Shown here in pieces: positions 3,320 to 13,775 of a DNA stretch of 21,083 nucleotides (positions within the stretch are counted from its first letter, which is position 1; each line of letters opens with the position of its first letter). Source of the DNA: a virus. A program made the position numbers and the translations under genes. The stretch lies in the IMG/VR virus record IMGVR_UViG_3300033145_000949, positions 1 to 21,083 of that record. One strand, written 5' to 3'. The notes under the pieces are model-generated. The model had not been told where the DNA came from. It saw nothing but the letters and a program-made list of their open reading frames with translations, and made no database searches.

Positions 3320-4930
3320 ATGCTTGATATCACAGAAATAGCAAAAGCCGGGGAAAGTAACGTAAGGGATTTTATGTTGCAGTCTATCGCAGAAGGCTTA
3401 GGCGCAAGCAATAAGGGGCTTGAAATAGCAAAGAATTTAACTTGTGCTGAATTTTGCGCAAAGTATATGCGTACAGAAAAAGACCTTAAAGTTGATTTTG
3501 ACAAAAGACCGTATTTAGTTAAACTCTATAACGATTTATCCCCTGAACAAGTTTATATGAAGGCTTCGCAGGTAGGAGCAACAGCTATGTTTATGAATAA
3601 GATGATTTATATGTCGCTAAAACAGGGGCTAACGATTATCTTTACGCTACCGACCTCTGGCGATGCCGGAGAATTATCAGCAAGCAGGTTTAACCCGTCT
3701 ATGAGGTTTTCGGAAATAGGGACGTTCTTTAATGCTGATATAGACAACGTTAAGATAAAGCAGATAAATAACTCTTATATATATTTCAGAGGAACGTGGA
3801 ATGAGCGGCAGGCTATTTCAATCCCGGCTGACCTTAATATTCACGATGAGTTAAATTTTTCACGCCCGGATATTATTGGAATTTTCCAGCCTCGGCTGGG
3901 TGCGTCAAATTTCAAAGGAACGTGGCTGGCCTCGACACCGACAATGACAAAGTTTCTGATAGACAAAGAGTTTGAGAACTCAAATAAACAATTCTGGATG
4001 ATACCCTGCCCTAAGTGTAAAAAAGAACAGCATATTATTTTTGAGAACATAAAAAAACTTGACGGTATTTATAAATACTGCTGTAAGTTTTGCGGTGCTG
4101 AAATAACAGAGGATGATAAGTTAAAAGGGCGCTGGCTTGAAACCAAAAAACATAAGCGTAACGGTTATTTTATGAACCGGCTGTTAGTTTATGGCGAAAC
4201 GGCTCAAGTAGTTTATGATAAATACGAAAAAGCCAAAGAAAAAAACAAGTTAAATATATTTTATAACTTTGTTTTGGGTTTGCCGTATGTAGAAGAAACA
4301 AGCCGAGTATTAAACTGGGATATATTCGCTATTAAATGCGCAAAGGATTACGATTTGATTACGGCATCTAAGAATTCGACGATAATGGGCGTTGACCAAG
4401 GCGACAATTTGCATATTACGATAGCTGATACGAAAAACATACGGAAAATAATTTATCTGGAAATGGCAAATAACTTTGAGCGGGTAGAACAGTTAATAAG
4501 ATTATTTAATGTTGGGGTTGCTGTTATAGATGCATTGCCGAATAAACATTCCGCCCGTAAGGTTAGAGATAAGTTTCCGGGCAAAGTATTTCTGAATTAT
4601 TACAATGATTCCATAAAAAAAGACTGGCAACAGGGTAACGAAGTCTGGGAGATAGTTTCAAATAGAACAACAATGTTAGATATAACGGCCTATGAAAAAA
4701 TGGACGGCAAATGTGAAATCCCGAAACTTAATATTCCGATAGTTAAAGAATTTGTTACGCAAAGTTGTAATATGGTACGGGAAATTGTTGAAGATAAGCA
4801 CGGCATAAAAAAAGTCGTCTGGAACGACGTGGGGGCAGACCATTGGAGGCACTCGGATTTGTATTGTTATCTTGCGGGGCTATTGCTAAAGAAGGCATTA
4901 AGAAGTAAGGTTAGTGTATCGGTTTTATAA
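3320..4930 (+). CDS. terL: terminase large subunit (GpA-like ATPase-nuclease)
   Basis: 536 residues. The N-terminal ATPase has a deviant Walker A KASQVGAT (81-88), a strand ending in HDE (175-177) as Walker B plus catalytic Glu, and a coupling-type LASTPT (203-208). A four-Cys zinc ribbon follows (CPKC 230-233; CKFC 255-258), typical of the GpA-like terminase family. The RNase H-like nuclease starts at GVDQGD (357-362) with further acidic residues after AVIDALPN. Length is normal. It packages DNA into proheads as an ATP motor and cuts concatemers. The Shine-Dalgarno site is weak, so expression may depend on coupling with the small subunit gene, which ends 10 bases upstream. Confidence 0.92.
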   Translation: MLDITEIAKAGESNVRDFMLQSIAEGLGASNKGLEIAKNLTCAEFCAKYMRTEKDLKVDFDKRPYLVKLYNDLSPEQVYMKASQVGATAMFMNKMIYMSLKQGLTIIFTLPTSGDAGELSASRFNPSMRFSEIGTFFNADIDNVKIKQINNSYIYFRGTWNERQAISIPADLNIHDELNFSRPDIIGIFQPRLGASNFKGTWLASTPTMTKFLIDKEFENSNKQFWMIPCPKCKKEQHIIFENIKKLDGIYKYCCKFCGAEITEDDKLKGRWLETKKHKRNGYFMNRLLVYGETAQVVYDKYEKAKEKNKLNIFYNFVLGLPYVEETSRVLNWDIFAIKCAKDYDLITASKNSTIMGVDQGDNLHITIADTKNIRKIIYLEMANNFERVEQLIRLFNVGVAVIDALPNKHSARKVRDKFPGKVFLNYYNDSIKKDWQQGNEVWEIVSNRTTMLDITAYEKMDGKCEIPKLNIPIVKEFVTQSCNMVREIVEDKHGIKKVVWNDVGADHWRHSDLYCYLAGLLLKKALRSKVSVSVL

Positions 4931-4949
4931 AACCGAAGGGGTTTATATT

Positions 4950-5039
4950 ATGAAAAATAAAGGATTAACTATTTTGGAATTGTGTATGGCTGTTACTATT
5001 TTGGCGGGTTTGTTTTTGTTAATACCGATGGGGGGATAA
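4950..5039 (+). CDS. 29-residue membrane peptide with a prepilin-like N-terminus
   Basis: MKNKGLTILELCMAVTILAG is followed by a hydrophobic stretch and IPMGG. The start follows AAGGGG (4935-4940) at normal spacing, and the stop is one base before the next ATG. The N-terminus fits a type IV prepilin signal: basic leader, Gly at -1, Glu at +5 (LTILE), then about 20 hydrophobic residues. Nothing resembling a pilin globular domain follows. It may be a tiny membrane protein that only resembles a prepilin, or a captured or degraded host pilin N-terminus. Function is unknown. Confidence 0.6.
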   Translation: MKNKGLTILELCMAVTILAGLFLLIPMGG

Positions 5040-5040
5040 A

Positions 5041-5193
5041 ATGGCAGAATTAAAATCTGAACTTACTGTGAAAATTAAATTTGATAAAAAATTGGAAAAG
5101 GCTTTTGAGAAATCAAACAGAAATTATAAGTCTTTAATGAAAATAATTAAAGACTTAGATAAAAGATTAACAAAGTTGGAAAAGAAAAGATGA
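5041..5193 (+). CDS. small coiled-coil protein, unknown function
   Basis: 50 residues, very rich in Lys and Glu, probably helical: KLEKAFEKSNRNYKSLMKII continuing to DLDKRLTKLEKKR. The start sits in the leader GGGGGATAAAATG (5031-5043), the same leader used by the portal gene at 5396-5409, which supports active translation. Such short helical proteins between terminase and portal are common and mostly uncharacterised. It follows the prepilin-like peptide by one base and probably forms one transcript with it. Confidence 0.65.
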   Translation: MAELKSELTVKIKFDKKLEKAFEKSNRNYKSLMKIIKDLDKRLTKLEKKR

Positions 5194-5206
5194 AAATGTT
5201 AATACT

Positions 5207-5238
5207 GCCAGCCCTTCGCTTAAAGCCTATTGGCTGGC
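5207..5238 (+). other. perfect 7-bp inverted repeat (RNA hairpin)
   Basis: GCCAGCC at 5207-5213 pairs exactly with GGCTGGC at 5232-5238 around an 18-base loop, which itself contains GCTT-A-AAGC. It is unusually G+C-rich for this area. It has no run of T afterwards, so it is not a classical terminator. It may control translation or stability of the transcript just before the portal gene, or be incidental. Confidence 0.5.
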
Positions 5239-5248
5239 TTATACTATT

Positions 5249-5419
5249 ATGAAAAATAAAAATATAGAAGAAGATTGCCGGAAATGTCACAACAGAGTAT
5301 ATTGTATAAATCAGGCATACAAAAATGGAGAGATTGAAGACCTTAACTATGATAATACGAATTTGAAAAATAAAAATTGTTCTACGATAATTTATGGGGG
5401 GATAAAATGGAAAAAGTAA
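5249..5419 (+). CDS. small Cys-rich protein, possibly zinc-binding
   Basis: 56 residues starting MKNKNIEEDCRKCHNRVYCI. Cys10, Cys13, His14 and Cys19 form a compact possible metal site, with a further Cys near residue 46. There is no good Shine-Dalgarno site. The start overlaps the stop of a doubtful 20-codon frame (5190-5252), and the 3' end runs into the first codons of the portal gene. The Cys spacing is the main reason to believe it is real. No function is recognised. Confidence 0.45.
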   Translation: MKNKNIEEDCRKCHNRVYCINQAYKNGEIEDLNYDNTNLKNKNCSTIIYGGIKWKK

Positions 5420-6987
5420 AAACCGTGAAGGCGTATATTCTGGGTGATGGCAGTTTAATTAAACAGGACGATATTCCGAAGGTAACCCATTCAAGCGAAC
5501 AGATTAAAGACAGTGATATTTTCGGCAGCTTATATAATACTGGTAAGATATACGAGCCTGTTGTTAAATTAAATCAGTTAGTTGACTTACTTTACTCTAA
5601 TTTTATCCATTATCGCTGTATCAATCAAAAAGTTTCCGATGTTGTCGGACAGGGCTATCTCATAACATCCGGCAATAGTGAGGTAGACGAGGCGCAAAAA
5701 GAAAATATAGAAAAAATTGAAGCATTATTTAAGTCGCCGAACAGTAGCAATGAAACGTTCTCTGAAATCCTTAAAAAATTTTGGAATGATTACGAGGCTT
5801 TAGGGCAGGCTTATCTTGAAATATCTATGGACAAAGAAAAAATACCTGTTGCCCTATGGCACGCTCCCGCTCAAACAATGAGGATATGTGTGGGCGATAC
5901 TTTTTATGTTCAGATAATAAATAACAAAAAGAAATACTTTAGAAAATTCGGCATTACAGATAAGCAGACAGAAAAAGGTATTTCAGATTTAAATATACAA
6001 GCTGGAGAACTATCAGAGCATTTCGTATTCAGTATGCATAATTACAGCCCTAAAGATGTTAATTACGGCGTGCCGGATTACTATCCTGTAATGTCATCTA
6101 TACTACTGGACAAATATAGAGGTGATTTTAATATATCGTTCTTTGAAAATAACGCCGTCCCCCGCTATGCTGTTATAGTTACGGGTGCTGATATAAAAGG
6201 TGATGTTGAAAATGCCATTAAGGCATATTTCCAGAGTCATATAAAAGGACAGGCGCATAAGACGCTGGTAATATCGGTTGGCGACAAAGAAGTCACTATA
6301 AAGTTTGAAAAATTAGCCGTAGAAATGCAGGAAAGCTCTTTCAGGCTACTTCATCAGGACGCTTTATACGATATTTGTTTAGCGCACGGCGTACCGCCTC
6401 GGTGGGTTGGAATAGCCGAAAAGGGAAGTCTCGGCGGCAGCAAAGAGAGCGAAAGCCAGTCACGTAATTATAAGACTAATTATATTGACCCGAATCAGCG
6501 GTTACTTGCCGGGAAGTTAACAGATGTTATTATTCGGCAGGGCTTTAAGATTGAAGAAATAAATATTATGTTTAGCGAAATAGATATAACCGATGTATTG
6601 GCGGACGCGAAAGTCGGAGACACTTACTTAAAAAATGGCGCATTATCTATAAACGAATTCAGGACAATGTATTTAAGTCTTAAAAAGTTAGATACGCCTT
6701 CCGCTGATAAACATATAATTTACTCTAAAGGGCAAGCAATAATGTTAGAGGATTTGGACAGCGGCGCACAGGAGTTAATTGAGCGGAAAGCTGTAAAAGA
6801 GGAAGAAAATAAGTTGTTTAAATACTTTACTAACAGAATTGCCAATGAGTTTGGAAGTAAGTTAAATGAGTTAAAAGATGAGTTAGAAAAGCAGGAGATA
6901 AAACATCAGGAAGAAAGTAAGACTATTTTTGAGAAGATGTTTCACTTTTTCAAGGGTGTTGGAAAGCGGGAGAATAATAAACAATGA
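5407..6987 (+). CDS. phage portal protein
   Basis: 526 residues, of the usual size. It resembles PBSX-type portals. The core contains WHAPAQTMRI, then FSMHNYSPKDVNYGVPDYYP (about 208-227), then SILLDKYRGDFNISFFENNAVP (231-252), and a later HGVPPRWVGI. The last 60 residues form a charged coiled coil. The portal is the dodecameric ring at one capsid vertex through which DNA enters and leaves and to which the connectors attach. ATG 5407 is chosen because GGGGGG at 5396-5401 is correctly spaced; a start at 5377 would add 10 residues with no such site. It overlaps the next gene by ATGA. Confidence 0.9.
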   Translation: MEKVKTVKAYILGDGSLIKQDDIPKVTHSSEQIKDSDIFGSLYNTGKIYEPVVKLNQLVDLLYSNFIHYRCINQKVSDVVGQGYLITSGNSEVDEAQKENIEKIEALFKSPNSSNETFSEILKKFWNDYEALGQAYLEISMDKEKIPVALWHAPAQTMRICVGDTFYVQIINNKKKYFRKFGITDKQTEKGISDLNIQAGELSEHFVFSMHNYSPKDVNYGVPDYYPVMSSILLDKYRGDFNISFFENNAVPRYAVIVTGADIKGDVENAIKAYFQSHIKGQAHKTLVISVGDKEVTIKFEKLAVEMQESSFRLLHQDALYDICLAHGVPPRWVGIAEKGSLGGSKESESQSRNYKTNYIDPNQRLLAGKLTDVIIRQGFKIEEINIMFSEIDITDVLADAKVGDTYLKNGALSINEFRTMYLSLKKLDTPSADKHIIYSKGQAIMLEDLDSGAQELIERKAVKEEENKLFKYFTNRIANEFGSKLNELKDELEKQEIKHQEESKTIFEKMFHFFKGVGKRENNKQ

Positions 6988-8348
6988 ATTTAAGTCCCAT
7001 TTATGATTACTTAAATAAAAGTCAGGCTATCTTAAATAAATTAGCTGATGAGTTGTTTGTAATGGATATATTAAATAAGTTAAATGCAGAGGCATATGTT
7101 AAAATCGTTGCTTTTTATAATGAGCTGTTTAAGAAGTTTTTAATAATGGAAAAACTGAACGGGTGGCTTGATAATTTATCCAGAATTAAAATTCTTAAAG
7201 CCAGCCTTATCGGATTAGATAAGCGCTCGGCTCAATTTGATACTGTATTAGAGTTACAGGGTGAAATGACAATGGAGTGGCAGGAATACGTCAATAAGAA
7301 AGTCGCGACAACAAAAGTAACTGAAAATCTTTTTAAGGCGGGATATATTCAAGGCAGTAAGATAGCAACCGGCAGATTAAACATAACTGAAAGTTTTAGG
7401 TTAAGGGCGTTGCCGCTAACCGATGCTTTTGTCGCAAGGAAAAAGATTTTAGACGAAGCAATGTCAGATGGTATGATAAAATCAGTTAATAACACAATCG
7501 CTGACCTATACGCAAATAAGGGTATGCACCCGGACGCTATCGCTAAGTTAATAAAAAACAAAGTCCCCGAAACTTATAAAAACAGAGCAAGAACAATCGC
7601 CAGAACCGAAACTAACTTTGCGGCTTCACACGCTCAATACGATACTTATAAACGAAATGGAATAACCCGTAAAGAATTACTGGTAGAATCAGATGCCTGC
7701 CCGATTTGCGTGGAAGCGCAGATAAGTATGGAGAATAGTAATATAGATAAAACGGCAATGGATAGTTTTGGGCAGTTTGTAATGTATCCGCCATTTCATC
7801 CGAATTCATATAGCAAGGATACGGAAATTTATACAGAATTCGGATGGATAAATATAGCTGATGTAAAAATAGGAGATTTATGTTTATCTTATAGTCCGCA
7901 CGAAAGAGATTTATCTTATATAAAAGTTATTAAAACATATAAGCATAAAGTTAAAAGAATGATACATTTTTATAAATCTCTTTACGATGACGCAATTGAT
8001 TTATTAGTTACGGAAGACCATAATATGTGTTGGTGGGATTGGGATGAGATATTTCATTTTAGAAAAGCAATAGAGCTATTTAATTCAAGAGATGGCGCTC
8101 TTTGCAGTAAAGTTGAAAAATTTTCAGCTATTTCAAAATGGCAACCATTTTTATCAGAGTTAAAACTTATAAAAAAAGAAATTGTTAATTATAACGATTA
8201 TGCTTATTGCGTAGATATTGAAAAAAATCACACGCTTTGGGTGCGACGAAATGGCAAAACATGCTGGTCTGGGAATTGCCGCTGCGCCATAGTCCCGCTT
8301 GTGGATGTTTCGGGATTAGAAGATATAACAGTTATGGAAAAAATTTAA
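6984..8348 (+). CDS. MuF/SPP1 gp7-type minor head protein interrupted by a mini-intein
   Basis: 454 residues as translated. The extein is a head morphogenesis protein: a helical N-terminal half, then RTIARTETNFAASHAQYDTY (about 202-221), CPIC (239-242) and HPN (272-274), continuing after the intein with CRCAIVPL (432-439). Removing residues 275-431 rejoins HPN to CRC, restoring the conserved HPNCRC motif, and leaves a 297-residue protein of normal family size. The protein sits with the portal inside the head and takes part in assembly or early injection events. Its ATG overlaps the portal stop (ATGA), as usual for this gene pair. Unspliced protein would have its most conserved metal-binding-like motif disrupted, so splicing is probably needed for function. 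Confidence 0.88.
   Translation: MNLSPIYDYLNKSQAILNKLADELFVMDILNKLNAEAYVKIVAFYNELFKKFLIMEKLNGWLDNLSRIKILKASLIGLDKRSAQFDTVLELQGEMTMEWQEYVNKKVATTKVTENLFKAGYIQGSKIATGRLNITESFRLRALPLTDAFVARKKILDEAMSDGMIKSVNNTIADLYANKGMHPDAIAKLIKNKVPETYKNRARTIARTETNFAASHAQYDTYKRNGITRKELLVESDACPICVEAQISMENSNIDKTAMDSFGQFVMYPPFHPNSYSKDTEIYTEFGWINIADVKIGDLCLSYSPHERDLSYIKVIKTYKHKVKRMIHFYKSLYDDAIDLLVTEDHNMCWWDWDEIFHFRKAIELFNSRDGALCSKVEKFSAISKWQPFLSELKLIKKEIVNYNDYAYCVDIEKNHTLWVRRNGKTCWSGNCRCAIVPLVDVSGLEDITVMEKI
7806..8276 (+). other. in-frame mini-intein (157 residues, Ser1, Asn-terminal)
   Basis: Hint-fold landmarks are clear. Block A is SYSKDTEIYTEFGW..IADVKIGD, aligning Ser1 with the usual Cys1 and keeping D5-T6. Block B is LVTEDHN, with the TxxH motif. 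Block F is AYCVDIEKNHTLWVRRNGK. Block G is CWSGN followed by Cys+1 (codon 8277-8279). The residue before the terminal Asn is Gly, not the usual His. There is no room for a homing endonuclease. G+C is lower than in the extein (hand count 28% for 7861-8160 against 39% for 7321-7620), suggesting separate origin. Confidence 0.88.
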
Positions 8349-8361
8349 GGAGGGAAATAAA

Positions 8362-9636
8362 ATGAATTTATTTGAAATTAATCCGATTAACTTAAAAAAA
8401 GAACAGCGGGAGGAAATTGTAAAACTTCATAAGCAGTTACATTTAATATCTAAGAATGTCCGAAGCGGTGATAAGAACATTTTTAATGTATGTAATAAAC
8501 TATTGATTATGCACACGCTGGTAGCAAAAGAGATGAGCAACAGAGATATAGACCACGACATAAAAGAAACTCTTTTCAAAGCCGCAAGCATAGACAGCAC
8601 TTATACGCCGCCGACGATGACGGATGTCGCCGATTTTTCTTTTCAGGAATCATTAACAATGGATGATGATAAATTAAAAAAGGTACACGAGAATTTACAT
8701 TATCTTTTCTGGGACGCATCTCTTGAAGACAAAGAAACTATAATATCATTACACGATATTGCGGCAAGAGAAATGATAAGCAGGGGGATAGAACACGAAA
8801 AGTGCTCTGCTCTGGCAATGCCTGAACAGCAGTTAAAAGCAGGAACAGAAGTAGAATGTGGGGCTTGTGGAAATGTATTTGATTATGGCGCAGAACCCGA
8901 AATATCAATGGGGGCAGTTAAATGTCCTAAATGTGGGGCTACAATTAATCAGATGGGAGAAGAATTAAAAGCAAAAGTTAAAGAAGAATTGCAATATATT
9001 TCCAAACCTTACCCTAATGAACATAGTGCCAGAATAAATGCCCCCGGTAAATATATACGTATTCGCAGGAAAAATGATTATTTTAAGTCTGGCATTGACG
9101 CGATTTTCGGTATAACGAAAGATGAAAAAACGGAAGTACAGGCCATAAGATTTGATAAAGATAAATTTACTGTTACTAAAGCAAAAGCGTGGTTAAAGAA
9201 AAATGACTTTGATTATATTTCTTTTGAAGCCGCTAAGGAAGAAAAAAAGAAAGTAGAAACTAAATGCTCAATTTTCAAAGTAGATAAGAAAAAACAAATA
9301 GTTTACGGCGTTGTAATGGAGCCGGATGAAGTTGATACTGATGGCGAATGGCAGAATGCCGCAGAAATAGAAAAGGCATATTATAAATTTATGGACAACC
9401 CGGATACTCATTTTGATATTCAGCATCAGGAAACATTAACAGTAGATAAAAACGTCAGAGTAGTTGAAATTTATTTAGCGCCCGCCGACTTCACAATAGA
9501 AAAAACGGGCGAGAAAATAAAAAAAGGCAGTTGGGTAATGGCATTAAAAATTCTGAATGATAGTCTCTGGCAGTTAGTTGAAAAGGGCGAGCTATCCGGC
9601 TTTTCAATTGAAGGATACGGGTATTCAAAATGCTAA
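8362..9636 (+). CDS. XkdF-type prohead maturation protease with N-terminal helical repeats and zinc ribbon
   Basis: 424 residues. Two copies of a helical unit come first (about 21-66 and 107-146), each built as [VL]H..LH... then H..[VI]A.EM..R.I.H[DE]. A zinc ribbon follows (Cys166, 169, 188, 191), then a segment seen in phage head proteins (PYPNEHSARI...FGIT..KTEVQAIRFDKDKFT, about 216-270). The C-terminal part is XkdF-like: YGVVMEPDEVDTDGEW (315-330), His355, then GSWVMALKI and LSGFSIEGYG with Ser415. His355 and Ser415 are the likely catalytic pair of this S78-type serine protease. It would cleave the scaffold and/or capsid during maturation. AAGGAGGG precedes ATG 8362. The extra N-terminal domains are larger than the minimal family. 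Confidence 0.8.
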   Translation: MNLFEINPINLKKEQREEIVKLHKQLHLISKNVRSGDKNIFNVCNKLLIMHTLVAKEMSNRDIDHDIKETLFKAASIDSTYTPPTMTDVADFSFQESLTMDDDKLKKVHENLHYLFWDASLEDKETIISLHDIAAREMISRGIEHEKCSALAMPEQQLKAGTEVECGACGNVFDYGAEPEISMGAVKCPKCGATINQMGEELKAKVKEELQYISKPYPNEHSARINAPGKYIRIRRKNDYFKSGIDAIFGITKDEKTEVQAIRFDKDKFTVTKAKAWLKKNDFDYISFEAAKEEKKKVETKCSIFKVDKKKQIVYGVVMEPDEVDTDGEWQNAAEIEKAYYKFMDNPDTHFDIQHQETLTVDKNVRVVEIYLAPADFTIEKTGEKIKKGSWVMALKILNDSLWQLVEKGELSGFSIEGYGYSKC

Positions 9637-9651
9637 AAGGTGTTTTCCCTA

Positions 9652-9680
9652 TTGACAGTTTTGAGATACTCAGATATAAT
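9652..9680 (+). promoter_or_regulatory. consensus sigma-70 promoter before scaffold and capsid genes
   Basis: TTGACA (9652-9657), a 17-base spacer, and TATAAT (9675-9680): both hexamers and the spacing are perfect. A second TATAAT follows directly at 9681-9686. It lies in one of the few non-coding gaps (9637-9745), upstream of the scaffold gene (ATG 9746). It would boost transcription of scaffold, capsid and downstream tail genes by host RNA polymerase. Confidence 0.85.
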
Positions 9681-9745
9681 TATAATACAATTAAGATATA
9701 CATTAAGAATCAGAACGAAAATCAATTTTTAAGGGAGGTCGCATT

Positions 9746-10465
9746 ATGCCTAAAGGCAGAGAAATAATAAATATAAATGTGGACAGAGTGTCGCTGGTCA
9801 ATAAGGCGGCGAACCGCAGAAAATGGATAATGCTTAAAGCACAAAAACAGGAGGGTAAAATGGATTTGAAAGAATTGGTGAAGATGGGATTATTGACAGA
9901 GCAGGACGCGGAATTTCTTATGAAGTCGGAAAAAAGCGAATCGCTAAAAGACAGCGATATTGTTTCCAAGGTAAAAGACCTTATGAAGTCGCTTACTGCG
10001 TCTGTAGTTGAACAGAAAAAGGAAGGGGCGGAACTCAAAGACGACATTGTTAAATCAGTTAAACAGCAGATAACAGATGCCGTTGCGTCACTTCACAAAG
10101 AGGAAGAAGACGCTAAAGCGGCTAATGAAAAAGCCGAGGCAGACAAGAAAGCGGCCGATGAAAAAGCAACATCTGACAAAGAACAGGCCGACAAGGATGC
10201 GGAAGTTAAGGAAAATCTCGAAAAGATGACCGCCCGCATAGAAGGCTTGAAAAAAGCAGAGAACATAGATGAAATTATGAAGATTGTAAAAGAGATTAGG
10301 GGCGAATCCGGCACAGCGGATTTGAAAGTCGTTGAAACGCTTACGAAAAAGATTGAAGCATTAGAGGCAGACATTCTGGATATGAGAAAAAGTTCAGACC
10401 AGATAAAAGACAAACAGTTAAAGAGTGCCGGTGGCCATTTTAGCTGGGGAAACATTTTTAAGTAA
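9746..10465 (+). CDS. capsid scaffold-like protein with XkdF-tail-like N-terminus
   Basis: 239 residues. Residues 1-38 hold INVDRVSLVNKAANRRKW, which resembles the V..VSLVDKPAN.R.F.. phrase at the end of XkdF-type proteases, here carried by a separate gene. The rest is highly charged and helical, with Ala/Lys/Glu/Asp-rich repeats (about 113-155), ending in a short basic-hydrophobic tail (HFSWGNIFK). That composition and the position between protease and major capsid gene fit a scaffolding protein. GGGAGGTC at 9733-9740 precedes ATG 9746. A second strong start lies inside at 9860, so two products are probable. Alternatively the first 38 residues are a leader removed by the protease. Confidence 0.7.
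   Translation: MPKGREIININVDRVSLVNKAANRRKWIMLKAQKQEGKMDLKELVKMGLLTEQDAEFLMKSEKSESLKDSDIVSKVKDLMKSLTASVVEQKKEGAELKDDIVKSVKQQITDAVASLHKEEEDAKAANEKAEADKKAADEKATSDKEQADKDAEVKENLEKMTARIEGLKKAENIDEIMKIVKEIRGESGTADLKVVETLTKKIEALEADILDMRKSSDQIKDKQLKSAGGHFSWGNIFK
9849..9862 (+). promoter_or_regulatory. internal ribosome binding site and nested start of the scaffold
   Basis: AGGAGGGTAAAATG: a perfect Shine-Dalgarno with 5-base spacing to an in-frame ATG at codon 39 of the scaffold gene. The same leader style starts the tail tube gene (AGGAGGGTAAAATG before 13785). Starting here gives a 201-residue product (MDLKELVKMG...) without the protease-like leader, in the manner of lambda Nu3 within gene C. Confidence 0.65.
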
Positions 10466-10502
10466 GTTTTAACCGTTGATAATAAGTAAGGAGGATAATA
10501 AA

Positions 10503-11483
10503 ATGACTATTGAGCAGATGTTGCAGAAAGCAACAATTGAAACTGATGATTTTTCCGCTGGCGGGCTGTTGAAGCCCGAAGTAGCAAACAAGTTTATTGA
10601 CTATGTCATAGACGAAAGCGTTATGAAGAATAACGCCCGTATGGAAAGGATAACTCCCGACCAGAAAGAAATTGACAAAGTCGCCGTTGGTAGTAGAGTG
10701 GCCGTACCGAAGACTGAAGCGACTGACCCCGAAACCCGCAGAGGTGTAGTAACGTCAAAAATTACTATCACTACGAAACCGATTGCCGTACCGTGGGCAA
10801 TTTCAAGGGAAACCTTGGCAAGGAACATTGAGAAAGAAAACTTTGAAGATACTGTCGCAAGACTTATGGCTACTCAGCTTTCCAATGACCTTGAGGAGCT
10901 TTTTGTTACGGGTGATACCGACAGTGCGGATACTTTTCTGGCAATGGCTGACGGCTGGGCAAAGCTGGCTTTGTCCGGGCACGTTGTTGATGCCGAAAGA
11001 AAAGATTTGACAAGCGTTACTAACGCAAAGGCAATTTTCGGCGGACTTATTCGGGCACTCCCGACTAAGTTCAAAAGAAACCGGAAAGACTTAAGATTTT
11101 TTGTTGCTGACAATGTGGCGCAGGATTATATTGACGCTCTTTCAACGAGAGCGACTGGTCTTGGCGATTCCGCGTTACAGCGGTCTATTAACCTTACGCC
11201 TTTCGGTATTCCGATGGTGACAGTACCGTTACTGCCGAGCGATATAGCCTATGGTTCGCCTGCGACAAGCGATAACTCCTATATTATGTTGACGCATTAT
11301 CAGAATCTTATTGCGGCAATGGAAGTGCAGTATACAGGAAGTGCATCAGGTATAGAGTTGCTGAAAGACCGCAATATTTATGCCAACACCAGAGAGTATT
11401 GCCTGCACCTTTCGGCGGGTTGTCAGATTCAGGAAACCGATGCGGTGGCTATCGCTAAGAACGTTAAATCAAGCGACGGCTAA
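10503..11483 (+). CDS. major capsid protein (HK97 fold)
   Basis: 326 residues. The pattern fits phage HK97-fold capsids. The N-arm is TDDFSAGGLLKPEVANKFID. The E-loop and spine-helix region contains RVAVPKTEATDPETRRGVV...PWAISRETLARNIEKENFED and LATQLSNDLEELFVTGD-like residues. The A-domain follows (KDLRFFVADNVAQDYIDALS, FGIPMVTVPLLPS), and the chain ends YANTREYCLHLSAGCQIQE. There is no long N-terminal delta domain, consistent with a separate scaffold. ATG 10503 follows AGGAGG (10490-10495); an earlier non-ATG start at 10476 lacks a site. A hairpin follows the stop at once. Confidence 0.9.
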   Translation: MTIEQMLQKATIETDDFSAGGLLKPEVANKFIDYVIDESVMKNNARMERITPDQKEIDKVAVGSRVAVPKTEATDPETRRGVVTSKITITTKPIAVPWAISRETLARNIEKENFEDTVARLMATQLSNDLEELFVTGDTDSADTFLAMADGWAKLALSGHVVDAERKDLTSVTNAKAIFGGLIRALPTKFKRNRKDLRFFVADNVAQDYIDALSTRATGLGDSALQRSINLTPFGIPMVTVPLLPSDIAYGSPATSDNSYIMLTHYQNLIAAMEVQYTGSASGIELLKDRNIYANTREYCLHLSAGCQIQETDAVAIAKNVKSSDG

Positions 11484-13359: not shown

Positions 13360-13775
13360 CTGAAACTTGGACATTAGTATACGGATTATTTACGGGTTGC
13401 GCAGAGTTAGTCGCTAAGTTAGGGCATACCGCCGAAACTCCGAGAATACACCGCTCACAGCAATATAAATTGATAAAAAATCAAGACCATATTATAACAT
13501 TTAAGACAGAAGATTTTGAATTAACAGAAGCGACATCTTTGCCGAAAAATACAGCGTTATATGTTAATATTTTATCAAAAATAGACGATAGAGATGCCGA
13601 AGAAATTGCCGAAATTATTTTAACCGAATTAGACAGAAAATATATAACAGATGATAATTTATATTTACACGGAGATATCTATTGGGATAATTATAAAACT
13701 CCGCCGGAATGGGATGAGAATAATAAATGTTGGTTTATTGAAATGCGGTTTAAGTTACCAGTTTCAAAAAAATAG
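13356..13775 (+). CDS. probable tail terminator / minor tail protein, SPP1 gp17-like
   Basis: 139 residues. It starts with GTG overlapping the previous stop; AGGAG at 13344-13348 supports it. No strong signature is seen. A helical N-terminus precedes strands (HIITFKTEDFEL, ALYVNILSK), a helix (DAEEIAEIILTELDRKY) and a terminal WFIEMRFKLPV strand. Size, alpha-beta order and position between the gp10-like and tail tube genes fit a tail terminator. Assignment rests mainly on position. Confidence 0.6.
   Translation: MTETWTLVYGLFTGCAELVAKLGHTAETPRIHRSQQYKLIKNQDHIITFKTEDFELTEATSLPKNTALYVNILSKIDDRDAEEIAEIILTELDRKYITDDNLYLHGDIYWDNYKTPPEWDENNKCWFIEMRFKLPVSKK

Follow-up and report, generated by a model that had tools for sequence, protein, structure and literature searches.

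Substrates of prepilin peptidases carry a leader ending in Gly or Ala, a hydrophobic stretch of 20-25 residues and, often, a glutamate at position 5 (Glu5), which pairs with the N terminus of the neighbouring subunit (PMC10191384). Damping of type IV pili by phages has been established for proteins of other kinds, PfsE, Gp05 and Aqs-1 (PMC8764522, PMC11436027). PfsE of Pf4 (PA0721) consists of 30 residues, binds PilC, suppresses twitching and type IV pili, and prevents superinfection (PMC8764522). D3112 Gp05 and DMS3 Aqs-1 inactivate PilB (PMC11436027). A PilE-like ORF is mentioned in Vibrio phage ValKK3 (PMC13142089). The word pilin was absent in a term search of a review of phage small proteins (PMC11323111), and the literature matches listed, with most subscription journals outside the search, include no study of short prepilin-like phage ORFs as a class. 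Passing GenBank notes on such ORFs are already on record. The note in Aeh1 reads 'similar to N-terminal sequence of bacterial secretion protein pilin', and that in PX29 reads 'similar to N-terminal part of fimbrial protein (pilin)'.

Aeh1 ORF040c (AAQ17699.1, 28 aa) and PX29p038 (ADQ52757.1, 31 aa) each comprise a basic start, a Gly, a T-x-x-E motif and one hydrophobic helix. Equivalents of ORF040c in Ah1, AsFcp_2 and avDM12-TAAL have the same build and are not listed as genes. These five Aeromonas phages were examined from 8 and 5 matching records. Between nrdB and nrdD, the genomes of Ah1, AsFcp_2, avDM12-TAAL and Aeh1 carry MKGFTLIELIVVVAILGILF..., and that of PX29 carries a variant. The motif KGFTLIE is present in the 28-31 aa ORFs of all five phages, and their pN/pS is 0.50, which is weak. 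Viral contigs with 28-31 aa peptides match PX29 and Ah1 at 100% over the compared stretches.

A longer form, of 60-67 aa, lies upstream of thymidylate synthase in KVP40-type phages (KVP40.0030 type), and its proteins carry the annotation PF00114 or PilE in places. Ten of the 49 matching records were aligned. KGFTLIE and a C-terminal QxMQCTP segment are each conserved in 10 of 10, with a pN/pS of 0.34 in columns 1-28 and of 0.45 beyond. Ah1, PX29 and KVP40 served as pattern seeds and the remaining phages were reached through DNA similarity of the region, so motif conservation in the non-seed phages is not a product of the pattern.

The window, that is, the whole stretch of viral DNA analysed here, is 21,083 bases long with 36.6% G+C. 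Its packaging and structural region encodes the small and large terminase subunits, portal, minor head protein, head maturation protease, major capsid, head-tail connectors, major tail protein and tape measure, an array that appears siphovirus-like. The following features surround the ORF of interest.

3320-4930, + strand: terminase large subunit (GpA type), the upstream neighbour (PF05876, 4.2e-17; phrog_675, 2.5e-87).
4936-4941, + strand: ribosome-binding site AAGGGG, with a spacer of 8 nt to the ATG.
4950-5039, + strand: prepilin-like micropeptide ORF, 29 aa, MKNKGLTILELCMAVTILAGLFLLIPMGG (motif and chance tests; TIGR02532, 14.8 bits against a cut-off of 16.3).
4950-4964, + strand: leader MKNKG, with a predicted prepilin-peptidase cut after Gly5 (Gly -1) by the class III signal peptide rule (PMC10191384).
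4965-5036, + strand: predicted mature helix LTILELCMAVTILAGLFLLIPMGG, 24 residues, with Glu +5 (Glu10 of the ORF; codon 4977-4979), followed by no globular head.
5030-5035, + strand: GGGGGG, which probably serves the 50-aa ORF as ribosome site and shares bases with the two Gly codons that close the micropeptide.
5041-5193, + strand: 50-aa ORF, next downstream, of no convincing known family (phrog_12015, unknown function, E 0.0015).
5249-5419, + strand: 56-aa Cys-containing ORF in a parallel slot before the portal gene.
5407-6987, + strand: portal protein, the structural neighbour downstream (PF04860, 1e-24; phrog_12, 7.7e-39).

The sequence-only reading had described a 29-residue ORF with a good ribosome site, located between the terminase and portal genes and encoding a basic leader, Gly at -1, Glu at +5 and a hydrophobic helix. 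The coordinates and sequence are exact, AAGGGG lies 8 nt before the ATG, and translation of 4950-5039 gives the described anatomy, with Leu at +1. The location needs a qualification: terminase and portal do flank the ORF, but two more small ORFs (5041-5193 and 5249-5419) precede the portal gene. The micropeptide ATG follows the terminase stop by 19 nt, and the start of the 50-aa ORF follows the micropeptide by 1 nt. The 50-aa ORF, possibly translationally linked to the micropeptide ORF, has GGGGGG as its probable ribosome site, and these bases also code for the final Gly-Gly of the micropeptide. If the micropeptide ORF is disregarded, the spacer measures 110 nt and is among the two largest gaps of a tightly packed region, with the 56-aa ORF counted.

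Elsewhere in the window, two ParB-like genes (204-686 and 2306-2836) lie just upstream of the terminase genes. Between them are a gene resembling tRNA methyltransferases (670-1314) and one for a C5 cytosine methylase (1302-2309). The window is also mosaic. Among named phages, its terminase (3320-4930) is nearest to those of Acinetobacter phages, at about 26% identity, and its portal and capsid genes (5407-11483) are nearest to those of Stanwilliamsviridae Streptomyces phages.

In sequence, the micropeptide is built as a class III signal: its leader ends in Gly, 24 mainly hydrophobic residues follow, and Glu stands at +5. The second half of a pilin, comprising the C-terminal half-helix and the globular head, is absent, since the reading frame closes where the hydrophobic helix ends. 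The ORF that follows lies in a different frame and has no pilin match in Pfam or PHROGs. The micropeptide fits a kind of short phage ORF of about 28-50 aa that encodes a leader and a hydrophobic helix only. It shares the basic start, the Gly, the T-x-x-E and the single helix with the Aeh1 and PX29 ORFs. However, theirs carry KGFTLIE, lie between nrdB and nrdD and belong to Straboviridae, whereas the window ORF carries KGLTILE, with Leu rather than Phe at +1, and follows the terminase gene in an unrelated siphovirus-like phage. The comparison points to a likeness in kind and not to an established descent. Like the KVP40-type Vibrio phage proteins, the micropeptide has a prepilin signal without a full pilin head, but it lacks their conserved C-terminal QxMQCTP segment. 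PfsE is similar as a phage protein of about 30 residues. The analogy is one of function only: PfsE is not known to be prepilin-like, and an aromatic YAWGW motif to which its study points (PMC8764522) is absent from the micropeptide.

The prepilin motif of the micropeptide exceeds chance expectation, by motif definitions drawn up after the peptide was seen. In a start-anchored scan for the motif plus an uncharged helix over the window and 80 capsid-relative loci, the window ORF is the sole match. None of 200 dinucleotide shuffles of the whole window yields a prepilin-like ORF. The local 112 bases (4931-5042) were also shuffled and read on the forward strand. The loose motif arises once in 60,000 shuffles, and the strict motif, G[FLM][TSN]xxE plus helix, in none of 60,000.

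Profile searches give weaker signals. The best named model for the micropeptide is TIGR02532 (NCBIfam prepilin), with a score of 14.8 bits below the cut-off of 16.3 (E 0.019). PF07963 (N_methyl) and Pfam-A do not match it, and phrog_13280, the sole PHROG at E <= 1, matches weakly (E 0.065). The same PHROG is listed for all ten phage prepilin-like peptides searched. Together with phrog_11263, 10597, 27437 and 11596, all of unknown function, and phrog_3433 (pilin, moron / host takeover), it matches the short phage prepilin-like proteins. These profiles are 59-187 positions long and match mostly over their first 20-50 positions. A viral-trained profile was built from 119 viral 26-mers, each of which is KGFT-like because the scans selected for this. 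It gives the micropeptide 8.6 bits, a score that 6 of 4,984 scored permutations reach, yet the micropeptide frame ranks 6th of 24,486 stop-to-stop frames with an E of 6.3.

The codon usage of the micropeptide is unlike that of the other genes. Its mean codon log-odds places it at the 3rd percentile among segments read in the true frame, and as high a value is reached by 17.5% of off-frame segments. Its synonymous score exceeds that of only 1.5% of true-frame segments, with an off-frame figure of 65%, and is low mainly through TTG leucines, which account for 5 of 7 Leu codons. These values are compatible with non-coding DNA or with a gene acquired recently.

The two ends of the ORF lie within exact repeats, as follows.

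4946-4961 and 5245-5260, + strand: TATTATGAAAAATAAA, exact repeat at the starts of the micropeptide ORF and the 56-aa ORF.
5028-5044 and 5394-5410, + strand: ATGGGGGGATAAAATGG, exact repeat covering the slot end and the start of the 50-aa ORF; the other copy covers the start of the portal gene.

TATTATGAAAAATAAA (16 nt) and ATGGGGGGATAAAATGG (17 nt) are the only exact direct repeats of at least 16 nt in the window, and a repeat of that length occurs in 5 of 3,000 shuffles of 4850-5450. The repeats bound two parallel small-gene slots, 4946-5055 and 5245-5421, between terminase and portal. The 29-aa and 56-aa ORFs open with identical MKNK codons, and both slots close with an identical ribosome-site and start segment. 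This arrangement suggests duplication of, or recombination at, gene borders. It speaks for inheritance of the ATG at 4950 as a start codon but also means that selection for a prepilin function need not explain the basic leader.

Two further elements lie near the slots. A perfect 18-nt palindrome, TCGGTTTTATAAAACCGA, at 4919-4936 spans the terminase stop codon and touches the micropeptide ribosome site. Its RNA fold is not unusual (z -1.25). A role for it as a terminator or promoter was rejected, as the palindrome is absent from the terminator listing and the promoter-like matches number 6 against a shuffle mean of 3.3 (sd 2.0). A hairpin, GCCAGCC / GGCTGGC, occupies 5207-5238 in the gap before the 56-aa ORF (-15.4 kcal/mol, z -2.44, with 3 of 200 shuffles as stable).

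These results bear on an unlikely alternative, that there is no gene at all. The 110-nt spacer, built on a duplicated segment with a gene start and ribosome site, would merely happen to read as prepilin-like, and the helix would be hydrophobic because the DNA is rich in T and G. The aberrant codon usage and the E of 6.3 from the viral-trained profile are consistent with such a spacer. So are the ORF ends shared with the 56-aa slot through the exact 16- and 17-nt repeats, by which neither MKNK nor MGG needs selection, and the failure of the terminase, portal and capsid searches described below to find a homologue. Against it stand the local shuffles, which almost never give the motif plus the helix, the good ribosome site, and the existence of comparable phage ORFs.

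Relatives of the locus were sought by several routes. Short exact stretches of the terminase and portal used as queries found no relative in viral contigs, and those of the terminase found none in genome contigs. Alignment searches kept 80 capsid loci (33-44% identity over the best segment) and 80 portal loci (27-38%), two sets that overlap in some contigs. The sole cellular relative of the capsid is a 35% match in a Myxococcales MAG. A match to the window terminase at E 1e-4 occurs in none of the 80 capsid loci and none of 79 portal loci, many of which are short, so that a terminase may sit beyond the fetched stretch in some. The fetched stretches contain no prepilin-like ORF, either in the 80 capsid-relative loci (895,346 bases) or in the 79 newly fetched portal-relative loci (552,158 bases). 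For conservation of the frame, Gly-1 and Glu+5, the viral-contig and genome-contig searches and the capsid and portal searches supplied no relative with the same terminase-portal junction. A tblastn search against named phages returned one record for the micropeptide, and one and none for phage prepilin-like peptides of 69 and 66 aa; helices of this sort are probably masked by the low-complexity filter, and the scarcity is not evidence of absence. In the searches made, the micropeptide is an orphan, with no homologue of this very peptide.

ORFs of the same build were sought more widely by scanning IMG/VR with DNA patterns for a prepilin start and translating from start codons. Judged by these translations, short prepilin-like ORFs occur in many unrelated phages. 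The scans yielded at least 153 distinct prepilin-like entries, at least 137 of them with a hydrophobic helix; the pattern-selected contigs hold the motif by construction. Among the matches listed, 123 entries close within their locus: 15 are of at most 50 aa, 36 of 51-90 aa, 22 of 91-130 aa and 50 of more than 130 aa. One ORF of at most 50 aa is tallied under both of its starts, and alternative starts bring in at least two ORFs twice. The tally covers the pattern loci minus L001-L006 and L008-L010, which were viewed separately, and leaves out the non-pattern loci L011-L018 and L138-L218. A first strict pattern scan had given ten loci, of which L007 holds a real short prepilin-like ORF and the other nine hold spurious frames. 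The TIGR02532 cut-off is passed in 7 of 7 re-searched viral records, all chosen for such peptides, in one of them only if neighbouring residues are counted. A bacterial control by DNA pattern gave no hit in 37 genomes of one phylum. A bacterial comparison used 8 genomes of that phylum, in which 3 of the 72 matches to TIGR02532 fall in open frames of at most 90 aa (stop to stop); the viral pattern scan and the bacterial family search select differently, so the size contrast is indicative only.

The genomic contexts of these ORFs vary. The ORF of L007 lies directly before a tRNA-Met gene, that of L019 near replication and integrase genes, and that of L229 near a recombination gene. In an unrelated 210-kb contig, L116, a 29-aa peptide, MNQKGFTLIELMIWLLSIFGPCAFGAFYL, ends 96 nt before the terminase frame (phrog_2, 2.4e-51), which is followed by a portal gene (phrog_213, 7.6e-54). 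A terminator-like hairpin with a T-run, GAGACACACCGTGTCTCGTTTTTTT, read by eye at 4219-4245 of L116, lies between the 29-aa ORF and the terminase, so the peptide may belong to the upstream transcript and not obviously to the packaging transcript. A further 22 loci have a terminase related to that of L116 but no copy of the L116 peptide, though several include little upstream DNA; this absence would fit a moron-like gene.

Some loci display additional arrangements. Neighbouring short prepilin-like frames occur in a 345-kb viral contig, L031 (G044:C1:13189-13254 and 13388-13453, in open frames of 69 and 53 aa). Tandem helix repeats, either real or an assembly artefact, are present in the prepilin-like ORFs of L137 (at 1573, IELLITLVIAA three times) and L112 (at 3010, IELLICCAIGG twice). 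L027, L232, L269 and L112 contain a phage family of 64-74 aa with a prepilin start and the ending K(Q/E)(S/Q)C...GGKW(S/T)EG...TQLCTYN.

The proposal that the window encodes a prepilin-like peptide thus stands in part. Its anatomy, the similar short peptides in unrelated phages and the GenBank notes in Aeh1 and PX29 favour it; the lack of a homologue in the searches made, the sub-threshold profile score, the deviating codon usage and the Leu at +1 count against it. The window ORF probably belongs, as an orphan, with the short phage prepilin-like ORFs, a kind that has hardly been described.

We tentatively favour, at somewhat less than an even chance, the reading that the ORF is a real accessory phage gene encoding a 'micropilin', which would interfere with assembly of a host type IV filament as a decoy or poison. 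A micropilin would keep only the class III (prepilin) signal of a type IV pilin and its first, transmembrane half-helix; the head would be missing. The peptide would be translated and inserted in the inner membrane with MKNKG on the cytoplasmic side, and the host prepilin peptidase would recognise it and probably cut after Gly5. The cut peptide would then compete with real prepilins at the peptidase, at a PilC-like platform or at the base of the growing filament via Glu5. Because a headless micropilin would itself be unable to extend a filament, pili, competence pseudopili or type II secretion would be damped. The likely benefit would be to close the pilus route to later phages, or to keep progeny off pili.

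Three other readings accept a gene, or the remnant of one. A decidedly unlikely one is a generic single-pass membrane peptide, holin-like, antiholin-like or a small membrane-active toxin, in which the prepilin pattern is coincidental or irrelevant. A product of 29 residues with a basic N terminus and a single hydrophobic helix is consistent with such a peptide, and PHROGs identify no lysis gene among the 28 other window ORFs, in a record that may be a fragment. However, the Glu five residues after the Gly conforms to the prepilin pattern, and as the only charge of the helix it would be costly if the helix were a plain one. The ORF also lies in the packaging region, and the micropeptide has no PHROG lysis family at E <= 1.

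It is improbable that the peptide is a minor-pilin mimic built into the host filament or its tip, altering the filament, for example by stabilising it or changing its retraction, rather than blocking it. The N-terminal pattern and Glu5 are as in assembled pilins (PMC10191384), and the longer phage forms keep the C-terminal QxMQCTP past the helix in 10 of 10, a segment that a pure poison would not need. The window peptide, though, ends at the helix without a surface part.

More improbable still is a truncated remnant of a captured host pilin gene without present function. The divergence of its codon usage from that of the phage genes agrees with a captured origin, as does the frequency of longer pilin-like genes in viral contigs (the 50 of 123 closed entries above 130 aa, among the matches listed), but the next two ORFs have no pilin match, the stop is neatly fused to the ribosome site of the 50-aa ORF, and the short form is present in other phages across related genera. 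A quorum-peptide role for the cleaved leader was dropped for want of supporting evidence.

The micropilin reading can be extended from this ORF to its kind, though the extension is quite unlikely on present evidence. It holds that unrelated tailed phages have repeatedly evolved headless micropilins as decoy substrates that use the host prepilin peptidase and filament platform to turn off pili, competence or type II secretion. The window peptide would then be a siphovirus-like case encoded next to packaging genes, and the 29-aa peptide of L116 a convergent second. If true, many phages would carry a minimal inhibitor of type IV filaments that annotation has missed or labelled hypothetical, such peptides being missed because they are under 50 residues. 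The micropilins would also offer a cheap and direct test of how little of a pilin engages the prepilin peptidase and the platform, and they would represent a new phage route to the control of receptors, DNA uptake or secretion.
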